A DNA stretch of 64,000 nt from Bacillus bingmayongensis (GTDB lineage: Bacteria > Bacillota > Bacilli > Bacillales > Bacillaceae_G), in the NCBI RefSeq assembly GCF_000299035.1, contig NZ_JH921517.1, positions 609,317 to 673,316 of the forward strand. Direction: 5' to 3'. A model generated the notes under the pieces. It worked only from the letters and a program-made list of their open reading frames with translations, was not told where the DNA came from and searched no databases. A program made the position numbers and the translations under genes. Below, one piece after another: positions 1,625 through 33,495 of the stretch. Numbering within the stretch: position 1 is the stretch's first letter; each line of letters opens with the position of its first letter.

Positions 1625-2299
1625 GTGGCAGTGCAAGAAAATTTAATATTCGTAAATGAGGAAATCAAAAAAGCACGTGAGCGAGCAGAGCGCTCGGCAC
1701 ATGAGGTTAAGCTCGTTGCAGTAACAAAAACAGTAGGAATTGAAAAAACAAATGAAGTAATAGAAGCTGGACTTACTGATTTAGGTGAGAATCGTAATGA
1801 AGGTTTTTTACAGAAGTATGAGCATTTCGGTTCAAAAGTAAATTGGCATTTCATTGGTTCGTTACAAACAAGAAAAGTAAAAGAAATTATTAATGAGATT
1901 GATTATTTACATTCATTGGATCGCATTTCACTTGCAAAAGAGATTCAAAAGCGGGCTACAAAAACAGTGCGATGTTTTGTACAAGTGAAAACATCGTCTG
2001 AAGAATCAAAGCAGGGGATACCAGCAGAAGAAACAATTGCGTTTATTCGTGCCCTGCAAGAGTTTGATAAAATTGAAGTTGTTGGATTGATGACGATGGC
2101 ACCATTCACTGAGGAAGAAGCAGAAATTCGTCATTGTTTTAAGGAATTGCGTGAGTTGCAAAAACAAGTGCAAGGACTAGGGTTATCGTATGCTCCGTGT
2201 AAAGAGTTATCGATGGGAATGTCAAATGATTATACGATTGCAATTGAAGAGGGTGCTACATATATTCGTTTGGGAACGATTTTAGTAGGGAAAGCGTAA
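1625..2299 (+). CDS. ylmE: YggS-family pyridoxal-phosphate homeostasis protein
   Basis: Protein of 224 residues with the fold of the N-terminal domain of alanine racemase. PLP would attach to K35 in the VAVTKTV motif; C-terminal motifs include ELSMGMSND and the phosphate-binding IRLGTILVG. The family buffers free pyridoxal phosphate and affects amino-acid pools, and no enzymatic activity is established. The start is GTG, served by AAGGAGG overlapping the pgeF stop codon, so the two genes are probably translated from one transcript. Confidence 0.92.
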
Positions 2300-2318
2300 A
2301 AGGAAGGAGAATATTATT

Positions 2319-2783
2319 ATGAGTTGGTCAAAAGTAAAATACTTCTTTTTTGACACACCGGAAGAGCGAGAAGCTTACGAAAAGGAAAAGGAGCAAGCTG
2401 AAATGAAAAAACAACAAGATCCTCCAGAGCAGCAGGATATTCCACTTACGAAAGCACAGCCGAAACAAAATATTGTAAGTATTGAAACAGCGAAGCAGTC
2501 TTCTAAAGTTGTTTTGCTAGAACCGCGGACATATTCAGAAGCACAAGGTATTGCGGATCATTTAAAGGGAAGAAGAGCAGTGGTCATCAATTTGCAAAGG
2601 ATGTCAACGGATCAAGCTGTGCGTATCGTTGACTTTTTAAGTGGTACTGTATACGCTATAGGCGGGGATATTCAAAAATTAGGACCGAAAACATTTATTT
2701 GTACACCTGAGACTGTGGATATTGTTGGGGCCATTTCTGAGTTGTTCGGTGAAGAGGAAGAGACAAATATAAAGAGGTGGTAA
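2319..2783 (+). CDS. sepF: Cell division protein SepF
   Basis: SepF polymerises into rings and arcs, binds the C-terminus of FtsZ and tethers the Z-ring to the membrane. The 154-residue protein shows the expected layout: an N-terminal amphipathic helix ([11 protein letters not shown]), an acidic and glutamine-rich linker to about residue 60, then the globular DUF552 domain from about 62 to 145 with VVINLQRMS and [12 protein letters not shown]. It is preceded by AAGGAGA. It sits between ylmE and ylmG, as in most Firmicutes. Confidence 0.96.
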
Positions 2784-4477: not shown

Positions 4478-4741
4478 CAACATATTTATTAAGAAAAACG
4501 AAGATAGGGATAAGTACCTTTTTCATACCTTATATAGCGAACTGAGGACGGTGTAAGCTCAGGATAAGGAGATAAATGGGAATATCACCCTGGAGTTCCG
4601 CGCTGAACAAAAAAGTAAGCGTAGGCGTATATTCGCGTTAAGAATATAAAGAGGACTTTGTATATACATGCATGGTCTACTAGGGTGGTACCGCGGGAGA
4701 CTTTCTCGTCCCTTTTTGGGGGATGAGAAAGTCTCTTTTTT
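4478..4741 (+). promoter_or_regulatory. Isoleucine T-box riboswitch
   Basis: Transcribed leader of ileS that senses uncharged tRNA-Ile. The T-box sequence AGGGTGGTACCGCG lies at 4682-4695 and pairs with the tRNA acceptor end. Upstream, the stem I region contains an ATC triplet at 4584-4586 in AATATCACC, consistent with an isoleucine specifier codon. The leader ends in the terminator at 4697-4741. When uncharged tRNA is bound, the antiterminator formed with the T-box bases would allow transcription of ileS. This is a well-known family, and the assignment agrees with the downstream gene. Confidence 0.95.
4697..4741 (+). terminator. T-box-controlled terminator of the ileS leader
   Basis: GAGACTTTCTC at 4697-4707 pairs perfectly with GAGAAAGTCTC at 4725-4735. 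The stem is extended by the neighbouring C-rich and G-rich bases and is followed by a T run. Confidence 0.93.
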
Positions 4742-9640: not shown

Positions 9641-9660
9641 AACAACAGTTAAATAATGAT

Positions 9661-9769
9661 CCTTTAACACAGCCCCGTGAGGTTGAGAAGGTAACGGTTT
9701 GAAATACTTAGGGTATGCTTGTACCCTTTTTTCAAAAGTCCTCTCGAACACGTTGAGAGGACTTTTTTT
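9661..9769 (+). promoter_or_regulatory. PyrR attenuator 1 (upstream of pyrR)
   Basis: The PyrR binding hairpin (anti-antiterminator) spans 9661-9691: outer pairing CCTT/AAGG, inner CAGCC/GGTTG and the consensus hexaloop CCGTGA. The intrinsic terminator is AGTCCTCTC paired with GAGAGGACT (9737-9763), followed by T. Sequence between (GGGTA/TGTACCC and TTTGAAA/TTTCAAA) can form the competing antiterminator. With UMP or UTP bound, PyrR stabilises the first hairpin and lowers readthrough. Confidence 0.93.
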
Positions 9770-9810
9770 ATACCATCCCTCTCACGCAAGAAAAAAGCTT
9801 GGAGGTGTAG

Positions 9811-10356
<546 letters not shown>

Positions 10357-10358
10357 AG

Positions 10359-10469
10359 CCCTTTTAAATGTAGTCCCGTGAGGCTGCCAAAGGGTCTTGA
10401 CTTTCGTATGTCAAATTTGACATACGAAAGTATAGGACTCTTTGTGCACAGGGCGCAAAGAGTTTTTTT
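10359..10469 (+). promoter_or_regulatory. PyrR attenuator 2 (pyrR-pyrP)
   Basis: Binding hairpin 10359-10394 with outer CCCTTT/AAAGGG, inner TAGTC/GGCTG and hexaloop CCGTGA. The antiterminator contains a perfect 15+15 nt palindrome at 10401-10430 (CTTTCGTATGTCAAA and its complement), flanked by AAGGGTC and GACTCTT. The terminator pairs ACTCTTTGTGC (10437-10447) with GCGCAAAGAGT (10453-10463), followed by seven T. Confidence 0.93.
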
Positions 10470-10503
10470 ATTGCAAAGTTTTAAACTGAAGGAGGATGTA
10501 ACA

Positions 10504-23152: not shown

Positions 23153-23182
23153 ATTATCTATTCCTTTCTTTAAAAGGAGAAC

Positions 23183-23354
23183 AAAAAATCCTCCCAATTA
23201 AATTCGGCAGGATTAGTCGTTATATTATTTATACCCAAATAAGCTATTGTATGAAATAGCGTTCCTTTCTTATGGAAAATGGGCAGACTAATCCTATTTT
23301 TTATAAATTGAAATATCAAATTCCAACATTTAAAAATAAGATTAGTTAATCATC
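23183..23354 (-). promoter_or_regulatory. Attenuator leader of the VmlR-like gene
   Basis: Read on the minus strand, four segments can pair in two ways. Segment 1 ACTAATCCT (23347-23339) and segment 3 GACTAATCCT (23218-23209) are both complementary to segment 2 AGGATTAGTC (23295-23286). Segment 3 can also pair with segment 4 AGGATT (23192-23187), giving a terminator followed by TTTT. Segment 1 overlaps the stop codon of a three-codon ORF. A ribosome held there would block 1:2, allow 2:3 and prevent the terminator. This is the ribosome-mediated attenuation known for ABC-F genes. Confidence 0.8.
23343..23354 (-). CDS. Candidate leader peptide of three codons (Met-Ile-Asn)
   Basis: ATG ATT AAC TAA, preceded by GGGTGG. 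Its ATG overlaps the TGA of another mini-ORF (Met-Met-Gly-Gly-Arg, 23368-23351) that is preceded by GGAAAGG. The stop codon falls inside attenuator segment 1, which is where a drug-stalled ribosome would act. Translation is inferred only from position. Confidence 0.45.
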
Positions 23355-23390
23355 GTCCACCCATCATCCTTTCCGGCATTAGTAATGATA

Positions 23391-23782: not shown

Positions 23783-24367
23783 CTATTTGACAAGAATTGA
23801 AAAAGCACTAAATACCAATAAAACTGCCATAATTATATTAAACTGTTGTCGGTATTGTAATAAGAGCTTTTGAAAAACCGAGCCAAATAGACTCCAACTA
23901 AACGTACTCATTAAACCAACCATTCCTAAAAATAATGAGAAAAGAAGATAGCTGGAATATGAATTGTAATAGGGGAGAATAAAGGTTGTTACTACTGTAA
24001 GCCCAAAAAGAATACCTTTCGGATTAATAAATTGTAACAAGATACCTATTAAGAAAAAGTTTCTATTACCTTCATCATTTTCGCCCGTATTCTCTTTACT
24101 GGTAAGTATTTTAAAAGCCAAGTATAACATATAACCTACACCCAAAATGGTTAAAGGAAATTCAATGATTGGTATAACACTTGTAAGTATAATATTAAAA
24201 AAGCTACACAATAATGTAAGAACAAAAAATCCAAAACTTACTCCTAAACAAAATGTAAATGTTTTCTTTAATCCATGTTTATTCGCAAATGTCATTGCCA
24301 TGATATTATTGGGACCTGGAGTAAAACTGCTAATAAAAACAAATAACAAAAATGAAAATAAAGGCAT
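23783..24367 (-). CDS. LysE/RhtB family amino-acid exporter
   Basis: Membrane protein of 194 residues with six hydrophobic segments and the family motif near the N-terminus SSFTPGPNNIMAM, followed by GLKKTFTFCLGVSFG. Members export amino acids such as lysine, threonine or homoserine; the substrate is not readable. It is divergent from an XRE-cupin regulator, a common pairing that suggests local control. AGAGAGG stands 6 nt before the start codon. Confidence 0.88.
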   Translation of the reverse strand: MPLFSFLLFVFISSFTPGPNNIMAMTFANKHGLKKTFTFCLGVSFGFFVLTLLCSFFNIILTSVIPIIEFPLTILGVGYMLYLAFKILTSKENTGENDEGNRNFFLIGILLQFINPKGILFGLTVVTTFILPYYNSYSSYLLFSLFLGMVGLMSTFSWSLFGSVFQKLLLQYRQQFNIIMAVLLVFSAFSILVK

Positions 24368-24394
24368 TTTTGGACCTCTCTTTCACTGGTGTAT

Positions 24395-24461
24395 GTTATA
24401 ATGTCCAAAATGAACAATATAACGTTGTGCTTTTTATTATACATAACGGTCGTTATAATGT
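24395..24461. promoter_or_regulatory. Divergent promoter region with repeated GTTATAATGT
   Basis: The 10-mer GTTATAATGT occurs twice (24395-24404 and 24452-24461) in the gap between the exporter and its presumed regulator. Each copy contains TATAAT-like sequence, so the repeats could be -10 regions, operator half-sites or both. Confidence 0.45.
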
Positions 24462-24482
24462 ATATATTATAGGAGTGATTTT

Positions 24483-25037
24483 ATGGAGGAAATTCAGCTT
24501 ATTCTTGCAAAGAATTTAAAAGCTATCAGAGAGAAGGAAAAATTAAGTTTGGAAAAGGTCTCTCAATTAAGTGGAGTAAGCAAAACGATGATAGGACAAA
24601 TTGAAAGAGGAGAGTCAAGTCCAACTCTTACAACGATTTGGAAGATAGCGAATGGATTAAAAATTTCCTTTACTTCCCTAATAAATAATCCACAGCCTGA
24701 TACGACAGTTGTTTTAAGAAATGAAATTCAAGTACTGTCTGAAGACAATGGAAGGTATAGAGTCTATCCTTACTTTCCCTTCCAAGAGGATAGACGCTTT
24801 GAAGTTTACTCTGTTGAAATTGAAAAAGAAGGGATATTAAGTTCTGATTCCCATAGAGAAGGAACTGAGGAATTTATCACTGTTTTTGATGGAGAAGTAA
24901 CGATTCATGTTAGTGAATGCAAATATAAATTAAAAAGCGGTGATTCAATCAGATTTAAGGCTGATAGACCTCACACATATTATAATTCTGGAGAAACATT
25001 AACTCGATTAAGTATGACGATATATTATCCAAGCTAA
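24483..25037 (+). CDS. XRE-family regulator with C-terminal cupin domain
   Basis: DNA-binding protein of 184 residues. Residues 8-62 form an HTH_3 domain (LSGVSKTMIGQIERGESSPT is the recognition region). Residues 105-180 form a cupin_2 barrel with the histidine- and glutamate-bearing segment SHREGTEEFITVFDGEV. Such proteins sense a small ligand in the cupin and usually control a neighbouring metabolic or transport gene, here most likely the divergent LysE-type exporter. GGAGTG precedes the ATG. Confidence 0.9.
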   Translation: MEEIQLILAKNLKAIREKEKLSLEKVSQLSGVSKTMIGQIERGESSPTLTTIWKIANGLKISFTSLINNPQPDTTVVLRNEIQVLSEDNGRYRVYPYFPFQEDRRFEVYSVEIEKEGILSSDSHREGTEEFITVFDGEVTIHVSECKYKLKSGDSIRFKADRPHTYYNSGETLTRLSMTIYYPS

Positions 25038-27204: not shown

Positions 27205-27218
27205 AAGGGATGTATTCG

Positions 27219-28059
27219 TTATTTCATATAGTCAGGTTTCCAGAAACCTTTAAAAGAAGGATCTGTTTCAATAAGTTTTTTAAACTCTGGAGAGTGATAG
27301 GCTTCAATAATGTCTTTTACAAATTGTTTATTTTTATCTTCTTGACGGACTGCTACTAAATTTTGATATTCAAAAGGCGGGTCTTCAATTGCTAAGGCTT
27401 CGCTAATTTTAATACCGGATGCAATTGCGAAGTTCCCGTTGATTAAAGCATAATCAGCATCGTCTAATGATCTTGGTAACTGTGGTTGTTCAAGAGTTGT
27501 AAAAGAAAAATCTTTATTTCTTTTTGATATATTTTGCTCAGATACAGTAAGAGGATTGATGTTTTAGAGTTAACCAATTAACTTCTTCAAGAATTCGAAG
27601 GCCGCGTGCGAAATTTACCGGGTCGTTTGGTGCGGTGATTTTAATTTTACTATTCACCTCATCTAGTGATTTATGTTTTTTTGAATATAAGCCCATTGGT
27701 GCAGTAGGGACTTTTAACACTTCAGATAAGTTCAATTTGTTTTCTTTAGTAAAAGCTTTAAAATAGGCTGTGTGTTGGAATATATTTACATCTAATTCGC
27801 CTTTTGATAATGCGAAGTTTGGTTGAACAATATCATTAAATTCTACAATAGAAATTTTATATCCCTTTTTTTCTAAATAGGGTTTAATAACTTTTCGTAC
27901 TTGGTCACTATATGGACCAGGAGTAAATCCAAATACTAACTCTTTTTTAGTAGATACATTTGTAGAAGCGGTTTTACTTGTTTCTAAATTGGAAGTACAA
28001 CCAATGAGTAAAAGTAACATAACAATAGAAATCAATAGTCTTTTCATTTGTGGCATCAT
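27219..28059 (-). pseudogene. metQ: MetQ/NlpA-family lipoprotein, frameshifted
   Basis: Substrate-binding lipoprotein of the NlpA family (methionine or related sulfur compounds). The N-terminal part has a signal peptide with lipobox LIGC (C21) and the domain up to EEVNWLTLK, then stops at 27538. The continuation, beginning NPLTVSEQNISKR and ending FKGFWKPDYMK, lies in another frame and stops at 27219-27221. Total span 841 nt: deleting one base restores 280 codons (279 residues plus stop), normal for the family. The A run at 27562-27565 is the likely site of a one-base insertion. No permease or ATPase genes are adjacent. Start is ATG 28059 or 28056. Confidence 0.85.
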
Positions 28060-28135: not shown

Positions 28136-28186
28136 TAAAAAGAAAAGAGGTATGAATATATTTCATACCTCTGGTGATCCAGTCAG
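28136..28186 (-). promoter_or_regulatory. Leader attenuator of the MetQ-like gene, motif copy A
   Basis: On the minus strand CTGACTGGATCACCAGAGG (28186-28168) forms a CTGG/CCAG hairpin with a four-base loop. It runs directly into the terminator AGAGGTATGAA/TTCATACCTCT (28172-28146), followed by TTTCTTTTT. The hairpin and the terminator share the bases AG, so they compete. Same 19-nt motif as at 28387-28405; see findings. Confidence 0.75.
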
Positions 28187-28229
28187 AATCAAATTTCAGT
28201 AAACATATGTATTTAATTGGTTTAAATGT

Positions 28230-28259
28230 ATTATAAAAGGGAATCTATTCATATTGCAA
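28230..28259 (-). promoter_or_regulatory. Promoter of the MetQ-like gene
   Basis: Minus strand TTGCAA (28259-28254), an 18-nt spacer, then TATAAT (28235-28230). It would start the leader about 165 nt before the gene. Confidence 0.6.
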
Positions 28260-28324
28260 CTATTTATTTGGAAAATTATTCATTTGATTTTATTTTAATG
28301 ACAAAACATTCTAATAATTCTTAC

Positions 28325-28353
28325 TTGACACCTCTGTTTTATTGGTATTAGAA
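28325..28353 (+). promoter_or_regulatory. Promoter of the monooxygenase operon
   Basis: TTGACA at 28325-28330, a 17-nt spacer and TTAGAA at 28348-28353. Transcription would start near 28360, so the ATG at 28353 is not in the mRNA. Confidence 0.65.
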
Positions 28354-28386
28354 TGGAACAAAGTTATTTATTAAGTATAAAATCTG

Positions 28387-28440
28387 CTGACTGGAGAGCC
28401 AGAGGCCTTTCGTATATATACACGAAAGGCCTCTTTATTT
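28387..28440 (+). promoter_or_regulatory. Leader attenuator of the monooxygenase operon, motif copy B
   Basis: CTGACTGGAGAGCCAGAGG at 28387-28405 forms the CTGG/CCAG hairpin. It is followed without gap by the terminator AGAGGCCTTTCG (28401-28412) paired with CGAAAGGCCTCT (28423-28434) and TTTATTTT. It matches copy A on the opposite strand in 16 of 19 positions, all three differences lying in the loop. Confidence 0.78.
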
Positions 28441-28463
28441 TGGTTGAAGGAGGAGTCTATGTA

Positions 28464-29963
28464 GTGACCAAATCAATTGGGAAAAGTTTCATAGAAAGCT
28501 TAGATGATAATCGATCTGTTTGGATAAGTGGTCGTAGAATTCAATCTGTTTCTAGTAATTTAGCTTTTAAAGGAACGTTACAAACGTTAAGCTCTTTAAT
28601 GAATACGTTAGAAAATCCATCTACTCAAAAAATAGTAGGGCACGTCAGTCCTAAAACAGGAAGTTACGTTCACAATGCTTTTTTAGTACCGAAGAATCAT
28701 GAAGATTTAAAAAGAAGAAAAGCAGCTTTTGAGTTATGGGCGAGCCAAACTTACGGTGTGATGAGTAGATTATCAGAATATGCAAGGTCTCTTGTAACGG
28801 GTTTGTATGCATCTAAATCGTATTTTCAGATGTTTGATTCTCAGTTTTCGGATAAAATAACGGAATATTTCGATAAATCTCGCGATGAAAATAGGATGAT
28901 TACGACAGCTATATTAGATCCGCAAATAGATAGATCAACAGATATTTATAATCAAAAGGATGATGTGATTTTACGTGTTATCCGTGAAACAAAGGATGGG
29001 ATTGTAATACGAGGGGCTAAAATGATTGCGACAGCAGCCCCTTATTCTCATGATGTGATTATTATGCCGCATCAGCGTTTAAAGGATGAAGATATTTCAA
29101 CTACAAATTTACTGATTGTACCTCTTAATTTACCTGGGATTCATATCGTATGTCGTGAATCGTTTGCAGAGCAAGAAGCAAATCGATTGCCTTTAAGTGC
29201 TAGATTTGAAGAAATGGATGCAGTGTTGATTTTTGATGATGTACTTGTCCCTTGGGAGAGAGTGTTGATTCGTGGGAATGCAAAAGGAGTATGGCAAGCA
29301 CAGCGACAGCAAAAAACAAATGAATTAGCGAACCATCAAACTGTTGTAAGATTGGTGAAAAAGTTAGAGTTTGTGACAGGAGTAGCCATTGCTGTTGCGG
29401 AGTCAATCGGAGCGGATCATTTCTTACATGTACAAGAAAAGCTCGGAGAACTGATTATGCAAGTAGAAAGCATTTCAGCTTTATTGACTGCGTCTGAAGT
29501 AAATGCGAAGTTAAATGAATTCGGTGTATTTGTCCCAGATGCAACCCCATTGTATACTGCTAGAAATTTAGGAACTCGTTTTTATCCACGTGCATTAGAA
29601 GTAATACAACAAATCGGAGCTGGCGGATTGATTCAAATACCTTCCGGAAACATCGGGGAATTTAGTGAAATAGATGAATTGATTCATAAATATTTTAAAG
29701 GGAAAAATATTGAGGCGGAGCAGCGGGTTCAATTATTTCGTCTTGCTTGGGACTTAGTAGGAAGTGAACTGGGATCTCGGCATGAATTATATGAAAGGTT
29801 TTATACAGGAGATCCAGTCCGGATGTTTGCTTTTCAATATGAAATGTATGACAAACAAGTCCTTCATAAAAGAATAGAGGATGCGCTTCGGGTGTTTCAT
29901 AAACAAGTAAAGGAGGATGAAACAAGTGGGTTACGGTCAAAAATATCTATCCCGTTTAAATGA
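28464..29963 (+). CDS. HpaB-like flavin-dependent monooxygenase 1
   Basis: Two-component flavin monooxygenase of 499 residues in the 4-hydroxyphenylacetate 3-hydroxylase (HpaB) family, with an acyl-CoA dehydrogenase-like fold. Seen: GVMSRLSEYARSLVTG, the flavin-region motif VIRGAKMIATAAP, and ARNLGTRFYPRALEVIQQIG near the C-terminus. A separate reductase would have to supply reduced flavin, and none is encoded nearby. The start is GTG 28464, with AAGGAGGAG 8 nt upstream; the open frame extends back through the leader terminator. The natural substrate is not known. The sulfone and sulfonate genes downstream suggest a sulfur compound rather than a phenol. Confidence 0.85.
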   Translation: MTKSIGKSFIESLDDNRSVWISGRRIQSVSSNLAFKGTLQTLSSLMNTLENPSTQKIVGHVSPKTGSYVHNAFLVPKNHEDLKRRKAAFELWASQTYGVMSRLSEYARSLVTGLYASKSYFQMFDSQFSDKITEYFDKSRDENRMITTAILDPQIDRSTDIYNQKDDVILRVIRETKDGIVIRGAKMIATAAPYSHDVIIMPHQRLKDEDISTTNLLIVPLNLPGIHIVCRESFAEQEANRLPLSARFEEMDAVLIFDDVLVPWERVLIRGNAKGVWQAQRQQKTNELANHQTVVRLVKKLEFVTGVAIAVAESIGADHFLHVQEKLGELIMQVESISALLTASEVNAKLNEFGVFVPDATPLYTARNLGTRFYPRALEVIQQIGAGGLIQIPSGNIGEFSEIDELIHKYFKGKNIEAEQRVQLFRLAWDLVGSELGSRHELYERFYTGDPVRMFAFQYEMYDKQVLHKRIEDALRVFHKQVKEDETSGLRSKISIPFK

Positions 29964-31347
29964 TGGTCGTAATGTTTGGTTACAGGGAGAACTTGTAAAA
30001 AATATAGACACTCATCCAGCTTTTGAGGGGACAATTCAAACTTTTGCAAAGCTTCTAGATATGCAGAATCACGCAGAAACAAGAGATAAACTTACTTTTA
30101 TTTTAGATGAAAATAAGGATAGAGCAAATCTTGCGTTTTTGGTACCTAAAACTACTGAGGATTTGGCAAGAAAAAGAGAGGCTTATAAAGTATGGTCTGA
30201 TGCTACTTTTGGTGTGATGAGTAGACTTTCAGAATATTCACGTTCGCTCATTACAGGATGGTATGCAAGTAGACATCGTTTGGGGAAAAATGTGAATCAT
30301 TTCGCTGAAAAGATAGAGCGGTACTATCAAAAAAGTTGTGTGCTTGATTTGTTATCTACAACAGCAGTACACGATCCACAAATTGATCGTTCGAAAAAAG
30401 CATCAGAAATGATAGATCCTTATACGATGGTCAGGATTGTAAAGGAAACAGAGGATGGAATAGTTGTTCGAGGTGCAAAAATGATTGCAACAGCAGCTCC
30501 ATATGTAGATGAATTACTTGTTTTTCCATATCATAAAAGACCACAAGAAGACACTCGATATGCAACAATGTTCGCTGTCTCTGTAAATACACCTGGTGTC
30601 CATATTGTATGCCGTGAATCATTTGCCTCCGAATATGAAGAGGATCATCCTTTAAGTGCCCGTTTTGATGAGATGGATTCGGTAGTGATTTTTGAAGATG
30701 TATTAATTCCATGGGAAAGAGTGTTTATTAAAGATGATCCGGAAGCTATTTGGAAGACACGGACAGATCCTGTTGTCTCCGCTTTAAGCCAACATCAAAC
30801 GGTTGTTAGGCTTATTAGTAAATTGGAGTTTATTACAGCTTTAGGAAATGAAATTGCGGTATCTATTGGTGTTACACAGTTCTTGCATGTGAAAGAAAAG
30901 TTAGCAGAATTGATTATGCAGCTTGAAACTATAAAGGCATTGCTTCTAACAGCAGAGCATCAAGCAAAAATTTATGAAGGAATATTTTTACCAGCAATTG
31001 TACCATTAACAACTGCTAGAAATTTAGGAACTCGCTTTTATCCACGGGCTATTGAAATCTTACAGCAAATTGGCGCAGGTGGGTTATTACAATTACCATC
31101 TGAATTGCAAGAGTTACAAGGGCCTATTGGTCATCTACTTCATCGATACTATAACGGTGCAGACCGTAATGCAGAGAAGAAAGTGCGACTGTTCAAATTA
31201 GCTTGGGATATCATTGGTAGTCCACTTGGTGCACGGCATGAGTTGTATGAAAGATATTATTCAGGTGACCCAGTTCGGACGTTTGCAGCTCAGTATCAAG
31301 GATATGATACGAAAAAGCTCACAAAACAACTAACACCATTTCTTTGA
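29926..31347 (+). CDS. HpaB-like flavin-dependent monooxygenase 2
   Basis: Paralogue of the preceding gene, 473 residues with the same blocks: GVMSRLSEYSRSLITG, VVRGAKMIATAAP and ARNLGTRFYPRAIEILQQIG. It overlaps the first gene by 38 nt. AAAGGAGG at 29908-29915 is well placed for the GTG at 29926; the in-frame ATG at 29917 is too close. The pair probably arose by tandem duplication and may form a heteromer or oxidise successive intermediates. Both ideas are inference. Confidence 0.85.
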   Translation: MGYGQKYLSRLNDGRNVWLQGELVKNIDTHPAFEGTIQTFAKLLDMQNHAETRDKLTFILDENKDRANLAFLVPKTTEDLARKREAYKVWSDATFGVMSRLSEYSRSLITGWYASRHRLGKNVNHFAEKIERYYQKSCVLDLLSTTAVHDPQIDRSKKASEMIDPYTMVRIVKETEDGIVVRGAKMIATAAPYVDELLVFPYHKRPQEDTRYATMFAVSVNTPGVHIVCRESFASEYEEDHPLSARFDEMDSVVIFEDVLIPWERVFIKDDPEAIWKTRTDPVVSALSQHQTVVRLISKLEFITALGNEIAVSIGVTQFLHVKEKLAELIMQLETIKALLLTAEHQAKIYEGIFLPAIVPLTTARNLGTRFYPRAIEILQQIGAGGLLQLPSELQELQGPIGHLLHRYYNGADRNAEKKVRLFKLAWDIIGSPLGARHELYERYYSGDPVRTFAAQYQGYDTKKLTKQLTPFL

Positions 31348-31366: not shown

Positions 31367-32428
31367 ATGACAATTCAATTTTATTGGTTTGCCCCTACTA
31401 GTGGTGATGGACAATATGTTGGTACGCAAAAGCCAGAACGACCACCTACACTTGATTACCTGGTGTCTATTGCCCAAAAAGCAGAAGAAGCACATTTTGA
31501 TGGGATTTTAATTCCAACAGGAACACCTTATTTAGATGCGTGGATGGTTGGATCAGCTATTATTCATGCAACAAAATCTATTTCTCCATTAGTGGCATTT
31601 CGACCTGGTTTTATTTCTCCTACAGTAGCTGCAAAAATGGCTTCTACTTTGGATGAGTTTAGCCGAGGGCGATTAATGGTAAATCTTGTAGCAGGTGGGT
31701 CTTCTGTTGAGTTAGGACAAGATGGTGATTTTTTAGAACATGATCTTCGCTATGAACGGGCAGATGAATTTTTAGATATTATAACAAATTTGTGGAAGGG
31801 ACAATTAGTTGATTATCAATCTAACTTTTATAAAGTAGAGAAAGCAAATTTAATTCCGAAAAACTATCAAAATCGAAACCTTCCTATTTATTTTGGAGGT
31901 TCGTCTCACGCAGCAAAAGAAGTAGCTGCTAAATATGCGAATGTATATTTACAATGGGGTGAACCTGCAAATGAAATTAGACAGCAGTTGCAAGATGTAC
32001 AAGAAAGAGCGAAAGCATATAATCGTTCATTAGAGTTTGGGATTCGTATTCATATTATTGTACGTGATACTGAAGAAGAAGCCTGGAAGGCAGCTCATCA
32101 TCTTCTCAGTGAAGTGAACACTAAAGTTAAGAATAAGATGAATACGTACTATAAGGAAGCTGATTCTGTTGCGCAAAAGCGTATGAATAATTTGTTAACC
32201 GGCGATTATCGTTTTGGAAAATATAAATGGGCTGGGATTGGAACAGTACGGAAAGGGGCAGGAACAGCGATAGTGGGAACACCGAAGCAAGTAAGAGAAG
32301 GGTTACAAGAATATATTGATCTTGGTGTTACTCATTTTATTTTGTCAGGATATCCTCATTTAGAAGAAGTAGAGCGTTTTGGAGAATTAGTAATGCCGCT
32401 GTTTAAATCTAATGAAGTATTAGCTTGA
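31367..32428 (+). CDS. ssuD: FMNH2-dependent alkanesulfonate monooxygenase (SsuD-like)
   Basis: Luciferase-like TIM-barrel enzyme of 353 residues, releasing sulfite from alkanesulfonates. It keeps the SsuD hallmarks FYWFAPTSGDGQYVGT, GILIPTG, VAGGSSVELGQDGDFL, YFGGSS, LQWGEP, GIRIHIIVR and the C-terminal LSGYPHLEE. The cysteine of E. coli SsuD in the GRSCEDAW motif is replaced by tyrosine here (GTPYLDAW). GAGGGAGG is upstream. It lies in one operon with the SfnG-like gene. Confidence 0.9.
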   Translation: MTIQFYWFAPTSGDGQYVGTQKPERPPTLDYLVSIAQKAEEAHFDGILIPTGTPYLDAWMVGSAIIHATKSISPLVAFRPGFISPTVAAKMASTLDEFSRGRLMVNLVAGGSSVELGQDGDFLEHDLRYERADEFLDIITNLWKGQLVDYQSNFYKVEKANLIPKNYQNRNLPIYFGGSSHAAKEVAAKYANVYLQWGEPANEIRQQLQDVQERAKAYNRSLEFGIRIHIIVRDTEEEAWKAAHHLLSEVNTKVKNKMNTYYKEADSVAQKRMNNLLTGDYRFGKYKWAGIGTVRKGAGTAIVGTPKQVREGLQEYIDLGVTHFILSGYPHLEEVERFGELVMPLFKSNEVLA

Positions 32429-32445
32429 GTAGGAGGGAACGGGAT

Positions 32446-33495
32446 ATGGAGTTTGCTACATGGGGATATAATGTTTCAGGTGGTTTCTTGCGTGCAAGCG
32501 TGGAACAGATTACAGAATGGTCTTATGAATATAATAGGGATTTAACCTTGCTTGCAGATCGATTGGGAGTAGAGTTTATACTGTTTCCAGTTCGATATAT
32601 CGGAAAAATTGGTGGAGGAGATGACACTAGTGGTCAATTAGATCCTTTGAGTATCACTGCGGCTTTAGCAGTAGAAACAGAGCATATTCATTTTATTAGT
32701 GCCGTTTTGCCTGGTTTTATTCCTCCTGCCACTTTAGCGAAAATCGGAGCAACAATTGATGTTATTAGCGGAGGAAGATGGCATATTAATTTAGTAAGTG
32801 GATGGTTTCAAGGTGAGCAAGAAGCCTTTGGAATTCCGTGGATTACTCATGAAGAAAGGTATAAACGCTCTGAAGAGTATTTAGAAGTTTTGAAAAGCTT
32901 ATGGCAACAAAAAGATGTTACATTTACAGGAGATTACTATTCTCTCAAACATGCGCAAATGGAACCAAAACCCGTACAAAAGCCTTATCCTAAAATTTTT
33001 CAGGGAGGGAATTCTGAGGAAGCTAGAAAAATGGCAGGAAGGTTGTCGGATTGGTATTTTATAAACGGCGCTCCACAGGAAGAGTTAATAGCGCAGGTAC
33101 AGGAGGTCAGTAAAATTGCTAAAAGTTATAACCGGAAAGTACGATTTGCTGTAAATGCATTTGTAATTGCTAGAGAAACAGAAGAAGAAGCAAAACAAGA
33201 ATTACAAACGATTGTTACTCATGCAGATGAAAATGTAATTCAAAAATTTAAAGAAAAAGTGGGAAATGCAAAAGGCATGTGGGCAAACGCAACAGAAATT
33301 AGTGACTTTGTTGCAGCTAATGAAGGATTCCGTACGGGTTTAATTGGTTCTTATGAACAAGTCACCAAAAAAATTCAACAACTAGAAGAAATTGGGGTTG
33401 ATCTAGTGTTATTGACATTTCGTGATCCATTAAAAGAGTTGCCTACTTTTTATGAGAAAGTTCAATCTAAGTTGTTGCAGATTCATAGTCTATGA
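32446..33495 (+). CDS. sfnG: Dimethylsulfone monooxygenase (SfnG-like)
   Basis: Luciferase-like flavin monooxygenase of 349 residues, similar along its length to SfnG, which turns dimethyl sulfone into methanesulfinate. Motifs: WGYNVSGGF at the N-terminus, YNRDLTLLADRLGVEF, GGRWHINLVSGWFQGE, EERYKRSEEYL and GGNSEEARKMA. AGGAGGG lies 8 nt before the ATG at 32446; the in-frame start at 32425 would overlap the previous gene. It is the last gene of the four-gene operon. Confidence 0.88.
   Translation: MEFATWGYNVSGGFLRASVEQITEWSYEYNRDLTLLADRLGVEFILFPVRYIGKIGGGDDTSGQLDPLSITAALAVETEHIHFISAVLPGFIPPATLAKIGATIDVISGGRWHINLVSGWFQGEQEAFGIPWITHEERYKRSEEYLEVLKSLWQQKDVTFTGDYYSLKHAQMEPKPVQKPYPKIFQGGNSEEARKMAGRLSDWYFINGAPQEELIAQVQEVSKIAKSYNRKVRFAVNAFVIARETEEEAKQELQTIVTHADENVIQKFKEKVGNAKGMWANATEISDFVAANEGFRTGLIGSYEQVTKKIQQLEEIGVDLVLLTFRDPLKELPTFYEKVQSKLLQIHSL

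Follow-up and report, generated by a model that had tools for sequence, protein, structure and literature searches.

Several described systems of bacteria use a protein to control the choice between a hairpin and a terminator. In the BglG/LicT/SacT systems, an RNA-binding domain of about 55 amino acids (CAT_RBD, PF03123) goes together with the RAT hairpin, which has an asymmetric internal loop and overlaps the 5' arm of a terminator, and the site is often directly preceded by the gene of its regulator, as with licT ahead of bglS. ANTAR, HutP, GlpP, TRAP and PyrR resemble them in this protein-controlled choice, and ANTAR sites consist of two hexaloop hairpins. S-box (RF00162) and T-box (RF00230) elements are found in sulfur-gene leaders and also act via terminators.

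In bacilli, an unnamed attenuator cluster was noted upstream of a sulfonate ABC operon and an unknown gene (Naville and Gautheret 2010, PMC2965389). The passage concerned gives no motif, protein or mechanism, and the cluster is possibly an early sight of the element described below (PMC2965389).

The two elements reported here lie in a 64-kb stretch of Bacillus bingmayongensis (64,000 nucleotides, the whole of the DNA analysed, hereafter the window). We consider it quite probable that both belong, as orphans, to a widely distributed family of attenuators that depend on a protein, in which DUF2292/YezD would bind the hairpin and cause readthrough into sulfur genes in trans.

Two motif copies on divergent transcripts

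The motif CTGACTGGANNNCCAGAGG has two copies in the window, at 28387-28405 on the plus strand and at 28186-28168 on the minus strand. The first-pass annotation had described it on two divergent transcripts, and both copies are where they had been placed, with no further copy in the window at up to two mismatches (2 matches vs 0.01 expected from shuffles). The features concerned are as follows:

28325..28354, plus strand: promoter-like hexamers TTGACA-18-TAGAAT of the plus transcript (consensus match only, 11/12)
28386..28406, plus strand: candidate antiterminator hairpin (motif matches, RNAfold, covariation of upper and lower stem)
28386-28388/28404-28406, plus strand: lower stem of this hairpin
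28389-28390 (GA) / 28403 (A), plus strand: internal loop of this hairpin
28391-28394/28399-28402, plus strand: upper stem of this hairpin, loop AGAG
28401..28441, plus strand: intrinsic terminator, 13 pairs within 28401-28434, -21.8 kcal/mol, 5' arm beginning inside the motif
28464..29963, plus strand: HpaB-like flavin monooxygenase gene, GTG start after AAGGAGGAG (start chosen by us)
29917..31347, plus strand: second HpaB-like monooxygenase gene
31367..32428, plus strand: SsuD-like luciferase-like monooxygenase gene, under the curated cut-off
32425..33495, plus strand: SfnG (dimethylsulfone monooxygenase) gene, luciferase-like, 385.1 bits vs a curated cut-off of 382.95
28230..28259, minus strand: promoter-like hexamers TTGCAA-18-TATAAT of the minus transcript (consensus match only, 10/12)
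28168..28186, minus strand: candidate antiterminator hairpin core, lower stem imperfect with U.U at -1:20
28146..28172, minus strand: intrinsic terminator, 11 pairs, -14.0 kcal/mol, 5' arm beginning inside the motif
27538..28059, minus strand: NlpA/MetQ-type lipoprotein gene, interrupted, profile positions 1-129 of 236

The motif had been said to fold as a CTGG-N4-CCAG hairpin, a description which is correct for the 4-bp stem and its N4 loop and which missed the lower stem and the GA/A internal loop. In the plus copy, RNAfold pairs G(-1)-C1-U2 with G18-G19-C20; above this lie the internal loop G3A4/A17 and the 4-bp upper stem, which is capped by a tetraloop. For the minus copy alone, RNAfold favours another weak fold (-5.0 kcal/mol). 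The plus hairpin alone reaches -8.3 kcal/mol vs -21.8 kcal/mol for the plus terminator alone, and when hairpin and terminator are folded together, the terminator is formed in both copies (-25.0 kcal/mol for plus and -19.6 kcal/mol for minus, RNAfold). As first described, the motif leads directly into an intrinsic terminator in both copies, with the 5' arm within the motif, and this overlap recurs in other genomes. Each transcript had also been given a promoter; hexamers are indeed present upstream of both, and leaders of about 26-37 nt are estimated from them, yet that kilobase holds 7 promoter-like sites vs 4.5 expected, which makes the hexamers weak evidence for both promoters.

The minus gene, previously called MetQ-like, is of NlpA/MetQ type, although its open reading frame is interrupted and covers about half of the profile; by our reading the protein apparently resumes in another frame, at about 27217-27560 on the minus strand. 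The lower-stem mismatch of the minus copy and the interruption of this gene look as though selection had been relaxed. Elsewhere in the window, a LysE-type exporter gene like those of cysteine/O-acetylserine transporters is divergent from a gene for an HTH-cupin regulator (23783-25037) and lies near sulfur genes, and an Rfam scan detected a T-box ahead of an ileS-like region (4492-4716), two PyrR sites (9657-9771 and 10356-10471) and the sRNA ncr1575 (23182-23384).

Overlap of motif and terminator across genomes

A scan with the exact pattern, using one genome per species, returned at least 117 stretches, which together with the window gave 122 exact sites. By our estimate, a pattern with 16 fixed bases would have about 120 exact matches in the collection by chance, so the number of exact matches is no evidence in itself, and the terminator and the gene context were used instead. 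A terminator of -12 kcal/mol or lower whose 5' arm starts in the motif was detected at 76 of the 122 exact sites listed vs 8 of 366 controls with shuffled flanks, and in all 76 passing sites the arm begins at motif positions 13-16, with 13-24 permitted. About ten of the 46 exact sites that fail at -12 kcal/mol look genuine by their genes, and the remaining ones are probably mostly chance matches.

The 3' strand of the hairpin thus serves as the 5' arm of the terminator, so the two folds exclude each other, and the constant start of the arm upholds the switch-like layout that had been read from the window. A shared strand and mutually exclusive folds are also what characterizes protein-dependent transcription attenuators in general. 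A dispersed repeat, mentioned beforehand as something that could explain the motif, was rejected as unlikely, given the differing terminator arms and the unrelated genes.

Covariation of the upper and lower stems

In sites selected for pairing, the upper stem is paired in all cases (100%) by construction, and the real test is an unselected set of nine sites. In this test the pattern YYRA-N4-ANNN-N4-AGG with a terminator at AGG was searched in the 117 exact-motif loci, pairing of the two N4 segments not being demanded. Nine further sites were found, eight of which pair at 4 of 4 positions, seven of these with other stem letters; the eight paired stems are CUAG/CUAG, UCAG/CUGA (two sites), CCGG/CCGG, CCAG/CUGG, UUGG/CCAA, CUGG/CUAG (with one G.U) and CUGG/CCAG with a changed flank.

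The lower stem was analysed in 181 sites that had been selected for upper-stem pairing but not for the lower stem. Pair -1:20 is formed in 171 of them (G-C in 97, A-U in 49 and U-A in 11), and the number of Watson-Crick pairs at this position was 157 vs a mean of 83.9 and a maximum of 102 in shuffles, which ignore the kinship of the sites. With the same shuffles, pair -2:21 (103 vs 67.2) and pair -3:22 (77 vs 48.0) were also enriched, and pair -4:23 was not above chance in the 181 sites. One locus has U1-A19 in place of C1-G19. An extended outer pair, U2-A17, was dropped because it is unpaired in 6 of 35 distinct rows, and Y2-G18 and -1:20 were preferred. The consensus is 5'-(lower stem ending C-Y)-GA-[YYRG]-ANNA-[CYRR]-A-(GG... 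lower stem)-3', with a 4-bp upper stem, a GA/A internal loop and a terminal loop of 4-5 nt, mostly with A at both ends. It had been held that only the letters of the motif are conserved, which is true inside the window, whereas across genomes the stem letters vary as compensated pairs.

As the upper and lower stems covary, the element is an RNA structure. If the motif were instead a DNA operator that overlaps terminators by chance, its shortness and partial palindromy would be accounted for, but compensated changes in two stems split by a conserved asymmetric internal loop, together with the strand-specific placement before terminators, would not; a DNA operator was rejected on the covariation and retains next to no probability.

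Two covariance models, R1 and R2, were built from the rows that MAFFT aligned cleanly (37 of 65 references and 56 of 59, respectively). Duplicates were removed, three dubious sites and loops longer than 5 nt were excluded from the second reference set, and the E-values of the models given below are rough.

Comparison with described RNA elements

No family of Rfam 15 reached its gathering score over the hairpin in the window, in sets of 18 and 20 loci, or in 40 loci selected for DUF2292, some of which are hairpin-free. A lax scan gave only matches far under gathering (e.g., 16.6 vs 84 bits, on the opposite strand). A known riboswitch was rejected on this ground, and the original view that the element is no S-box, T-box, PyrR loop or other familiar class came through the check proposed for it, a covariance model compared with Rfam: the stems covary, and no family was found at threshold. 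Neither the RF00162 aptamer nor RF00230 was present at the hairpin; where these occur in the loci considered here, they are separate elements upstream of DUF2292.

The element would function in the manner of the LicT/RAT class, to which it does not belong. The two share a small protein, a hairpin with an asymmetric internal loop over the terminator arm, and a regulator gene that is often just upstream, whereas the hairpin sequence, as judged by eye, is unlike that of RAT. No CAT_RBD match was found in the DUF2292 proteins scanned. CAT_RBD was detected in 19 of 30 motif genomes, all drawn from those that also have DUF2292, vs 8 of 30 genomes without the motif, 4 of which have weak motif matches; being missing from 11 of the 30 motif genomes, it was ruled out as a necessary factor. 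The element also looks unlike ANTAR sites, since it has just one hairpin, whose terminal loop is 4-5 nt long and whose internal loop is GA/A, which argues against ANTAR.

Genes downstream of the hairpin

The downstream set of exact sites was obtained by leaving out L067 and L093, whose terminators are dubious, and eight sites at which no ORF could be called, and by adding ten loci that fail the terminator test but were chosen by a look at their genes (L006, L015, L023, L036, L059, L061, L075, L096, L103 and L116). L096 had no ORF, which left nine added loci in the final set. In this set (n = 81), whose tallies are biased towards sulfur genes, the first downstream genes include 13 NifB (4 of them from hand-added loci without a detected terminator, by our reading), 9 SsuC/TauC-type permeases, 5 nitrogenase-like proteins, 4 PALP proteins (CysK-like by our reading), 3 NIL-domain proteins (MetN type) and 3 family-3 binding proteins. 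The loci found by covariance model (n = 84 genes; tallies may overlap and cover the 25 commonest families only) contributed 8 sulfate-binding proteins, 8 CysH, 8 luciferase-family monooxygenases including SsuD/SfnG types, 7 NMT1/SsuA types, 5 ABC ATPases, 3 TauE, 3 FMN reductases, 3 nitrogenase-like proteins and 2 NifH. Several sites may be present in one genome (R1, E<=0.1), such as 8 in Clostridium, 6 in Heliophilum and 5 in Aeribacillus. Downstream genes without a clear sulfur role were also observed, including a leucine carboxyl methyltransferase-like gene (in Selenomonas), Fe-ADH, MarR and DUF4430.

The recurring overlap of motif and terminator, the covarying stems and the many sulfur genes downstream bear out the initial proposal of an attenuator linked to sulfur supply. 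That the downstream genes point to sulfur supply holds for many of the first genes and has to be qualified for others, as phage satellites and apparently cobalamin-linked operons carry the element too.

In Lachnospiraceae-type loci such as L013, L050, L068 and L098, a short NifB is encoded behind the hairpin, in several cases together with a NifX-like protein (PF02579, checked in L098), and this nitrogenase-related cluster is apparently tied to sulfur rather than nitrogen.

DUF2292/YezD as the candidate partner protein

Clustering of the hairpin neighbours identified DUF2292/YezD (PF10055), a family of 50-65 amino acids. The gathering score of 22 bits was reached by bacterial proteins from L068 (62.5), L191 (58.0) and L020 (57.2) to L222 (32.1), L088 (28.1), L022 (27.9), L028 (24.2) and L092 (22.5). 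Within the window itself, a DUF2292 profile search gave no match, and in a control search B. subtilis proved to have a DUF2292 gene. The family libraries used record no function for DUF2292 or for PBSX_XtrA (PF17356), and no solved relative was found. In the part of the open-access literature that was searched, neither a function for DUF2292/YezD nor a description of this element was found, and among the matches listed for the motif letters as a text string, the titles look like primer lists.

Published ribosome profiling in B. subtilis lists ssu, tcy, ytm and yxe genes alongside yezD, among 68 genes whose induction on biofilm entry exceeds that in serine starvation at least 10-fold; the authors note that this group is enriched in sulfur genes (PMC3862929). 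In other papers, yezD adjoins a sulfate transporter (PMC7953295) and a DUF2292 gene is reported in Pseudomonas fragi (PMC7921472), and a paper on B. subtilis starvation mentions yezD twice (PMC6385201).

Co-occurrence of motif and DUF2292 was examined in three samples, as raw counts over related genomes. In the first, 299 genomes from the class that includes an Aeribacillus, 99 had both, 6 the motif only, 20 DUF2292 only and 174 neither; the corresponding numbers were 7, 0, 1 and 91 for 99 genomes from the phylum that includes a Geomonas, and 9, 8, 2 and 177 for 196 genomes from the class that includes a Clostridium. The sparse pattern in the second sample (7 of 99) argues against simple descent as the cause of the co-occurrence. 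In the Clostridium-class sample, the motif E-value exceeds 1e-5 in 6 of the 8 motif-only genomes; when E<=1e-7 is required, 7 of 8 motif genomes contain DUF2292. Six of the 105 motif genomes of the first sample lack a PF10055 match, and in two of them (G061 and G247) phage-type relatives adjoin the motif. When the 20 DUF2292-only genomes of that sample were searched with higher sensitivity, hairpin matches at E<=0.01 appeared in 10, seven of them directly behind DUF2292, and no hairpin in the other 10; among the controls, weak matches at E<=0.01 occurred in 4 of 16 genomes with neither and in 0 of 4 outgroup genomes.

The layout of the sites is asymmetric. At 37 of 176 sites, the end of a same-strand DUF2292-like ORF falls in the 400 nt 5' of the hairpin, vs 4 sites with such an ORF within 600 nt on the 3' side and 1 with it on the opposite strand. 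In the reverse direction, 40 loci were fetched by the DUF2292 profile alone (the best-scoring 30 and 10 of two surveys), and a hairpin (R2, E<=1e-3) lies within 250 nt 3' of DUF2292 in 22 of them. Another protein or a small molecule might bind the hairpin, with DUF2292 merely a frequent member of the regulon, as its genes are often located behind riboswitches and near sulfur genes; however, the preference for the 5' side (37 vs 4), the co-occurrence over patchy genomes and the pairing of variant proteins with variant hairpins in satellites (three cases, see below) make this improbable. In addition, a conserved RNA of about 25 nt is small for a ligand pocket, which tells against a small molecule, and the absence of CAT_RBD, the known antiterminator domain, from 11 of 30 motif genomes tells against a protein with that domain.

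It is also conceivable that DUF2292 acts mainly as a leader reading frame in cis, the ribosome at its stop codon picking hairpin or terminator. This would fit the 9 of 176 sites in which the stop codon is inside the motif, as part of CUGA, and the 37 in which the ORF ends within 400 nt. We regard leader-ORF attenuation as quite unlikely all the same, because 139 of the 176 sites, both window copies included, have no such ORF close upstream, the ORF-hairpin distances range from -1 to 184 nt, and the DUF2292 protein sequence is conserved as a domain. For the preferred reading, in which the protein itself binds the hairpin, these 139 sites without a near DUF2292 mean that action in trans must be assumed.

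Genes for an Rrf2 protein (6 loci) and a LysR protein (5 loci) were considered as regulators and set aside as DNA-binding neighbours. In the vicinity of Pelosinus-type sites (L018, L020, L041 and L101) there are tandem DUF2292 domains as well as DUF2325 or DUF1847 genes.

Riboswitches and T-box upstream of DUF2292

In the 40 DUF2292-selected loci, Rfam models detected a SAM riboswitch (RF00162) upstream of DUF2292 on the same strand in 14, a cobalamin riboswitch in 2 and a T-box (RF00230) in 1, a Clostridium locus whose specifier position, by our reading, matches the cysteine codon UGC. It seems to be this control of DUF2292, by SAM riboswitch, T-box or cobalamin riboswitch, that does the sensing, rather than the hairpin itself. 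The sensing step is probably an ordinary one, placed ahead of DUF2292, and the relay is probably the new part.

Several individual arrangements were observed. In L235, a single DUF2292 gene is preceded by a tandem pair of SAM riboswitch matches (1825-1990 and 2152-2319, minus strand), and in L327 a TwoAYGGAY RNA match (1081-1237) is present upstream of a DUF2292 gene. A DUF2292 subgroup ending in ..KKSIKL (L331 and L332, with similar forms in L022, L071 and L092) is encoded ahead of DUF4430-type surface-protein genes in some loci, by our reading, and in L331 and L332 it follows a cobalamin riboswitch. On the basis of such gene order, the relay may serve B12 genes as well.

Related proteins and hairpins in phage satellites

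The canonical form of the motif was found in 14 viral-contig stretches, with a terminator call in 5 (two of them doubtful), and the CTAG form in 13, with a terminator in 10. In 10 of these 27 stretches, a small ORF with a loose DUF2292 C-terminus pattern ends 3-13 nt before the motif. One such small protein matched 63 phage records, all Streptococcus by name, and the 20 of these 63 that were listed are all satellite phages. The satellite proteins match phrog_1551 and have weak matches to both DUF2292 (PF10055) and PBSX XtrA (PF17356), falling under the PF10055 gathering score (19.8 bits in L164 and no match in L168), whereas the bacterial partners are DUF2292.

In nine satellite records, annotated replication genes are located 5' of the small gene in 7 and annotated late-type genes (terminase, capsid) 3' of it in 3, the other genes being hypothetical. 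The hairpin is standard in six of the nine, and in three (L335, L336 and L337) it has, by our reading, a shifted form, GUCUA-stem-AACAA-stem-GGG, which occurs together with a variant of the small protein that has KK at its end. That protein and RNA change in parallel, as seen in three cases, is the best argument for direct recognition, and it is possible, judging from the sequences, that L335, L336 and L337 contain orthogonal protein-RNA pairs.

The order of the satellite genes also bears on the direction of the effect. The sign cannot be read from sequence, and DUF2292 could destabilise the hairpin or favour the terminator and so repress readthrough. We give this opposite direction a very slim chance, as the terminator is excluded whenever a factor holds the hairpin, the satellite gene comes after replication genes (7/9) and before late-type genes where these are annotated (3/9), and bacterial DUF2292 is often located behind a SAM riboswitch and ahead of the genes concerned. 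Antitermination is the likely effect, considering the geometry and the position of the gene in satellites.

Proposed mechanism and implications

In the proposed mechanism, the hairpin 3' strand would double as the terminator 5' arm such that one fold could exist at a time, and the stronger terminator would be formed in the default state. The tiny DUF2292 protein probably works the switch: it likely binds the hairpin, and by holding it would let transcription continue into the sulfur genes. Its own expression would often be set by a SAM riboswitch, and in one locus by a T-box. Low SAM or uncharged tRNA-Cys could then lead to production of DUF2292 and to readthrough in its own operon as well as at orphan sites located elsewhere, including the window pair. 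Orphan sites thus likely respond in trans, and the window copies likely respond to sulfur supply.

On a broader scale, it is moderately probable that the DUF2292/XtrA micro-proteins represent a large new family of RNA-hairpin antiterminators, which would relay a riboswitch or T-box signal in trans to sensorless hairpin-terminator sites, including those of nitrogenase-like and organosulfur operons, that the diverged satellite pair would be an early-to-late switch, and that protein and hairpin would coevolve as orthogonal pairs.

These results offer a testable function for a Pfam family of unknown function and suggest that a protein of 50 residues can pass a riboswitch signal on in trans to many operons that are unlinked. 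They also point to a regulatory layer for organosulfur scavenging, which would include the NifB and nitrogenase-like genes of anaerobes, whose control in these organisms is, to our knowledge, poorly known. Phage satellites may use a related switch for their late genes. If confirmed, the pairs of protein and hairpin would be compact, orthogonal parts for transcription control.
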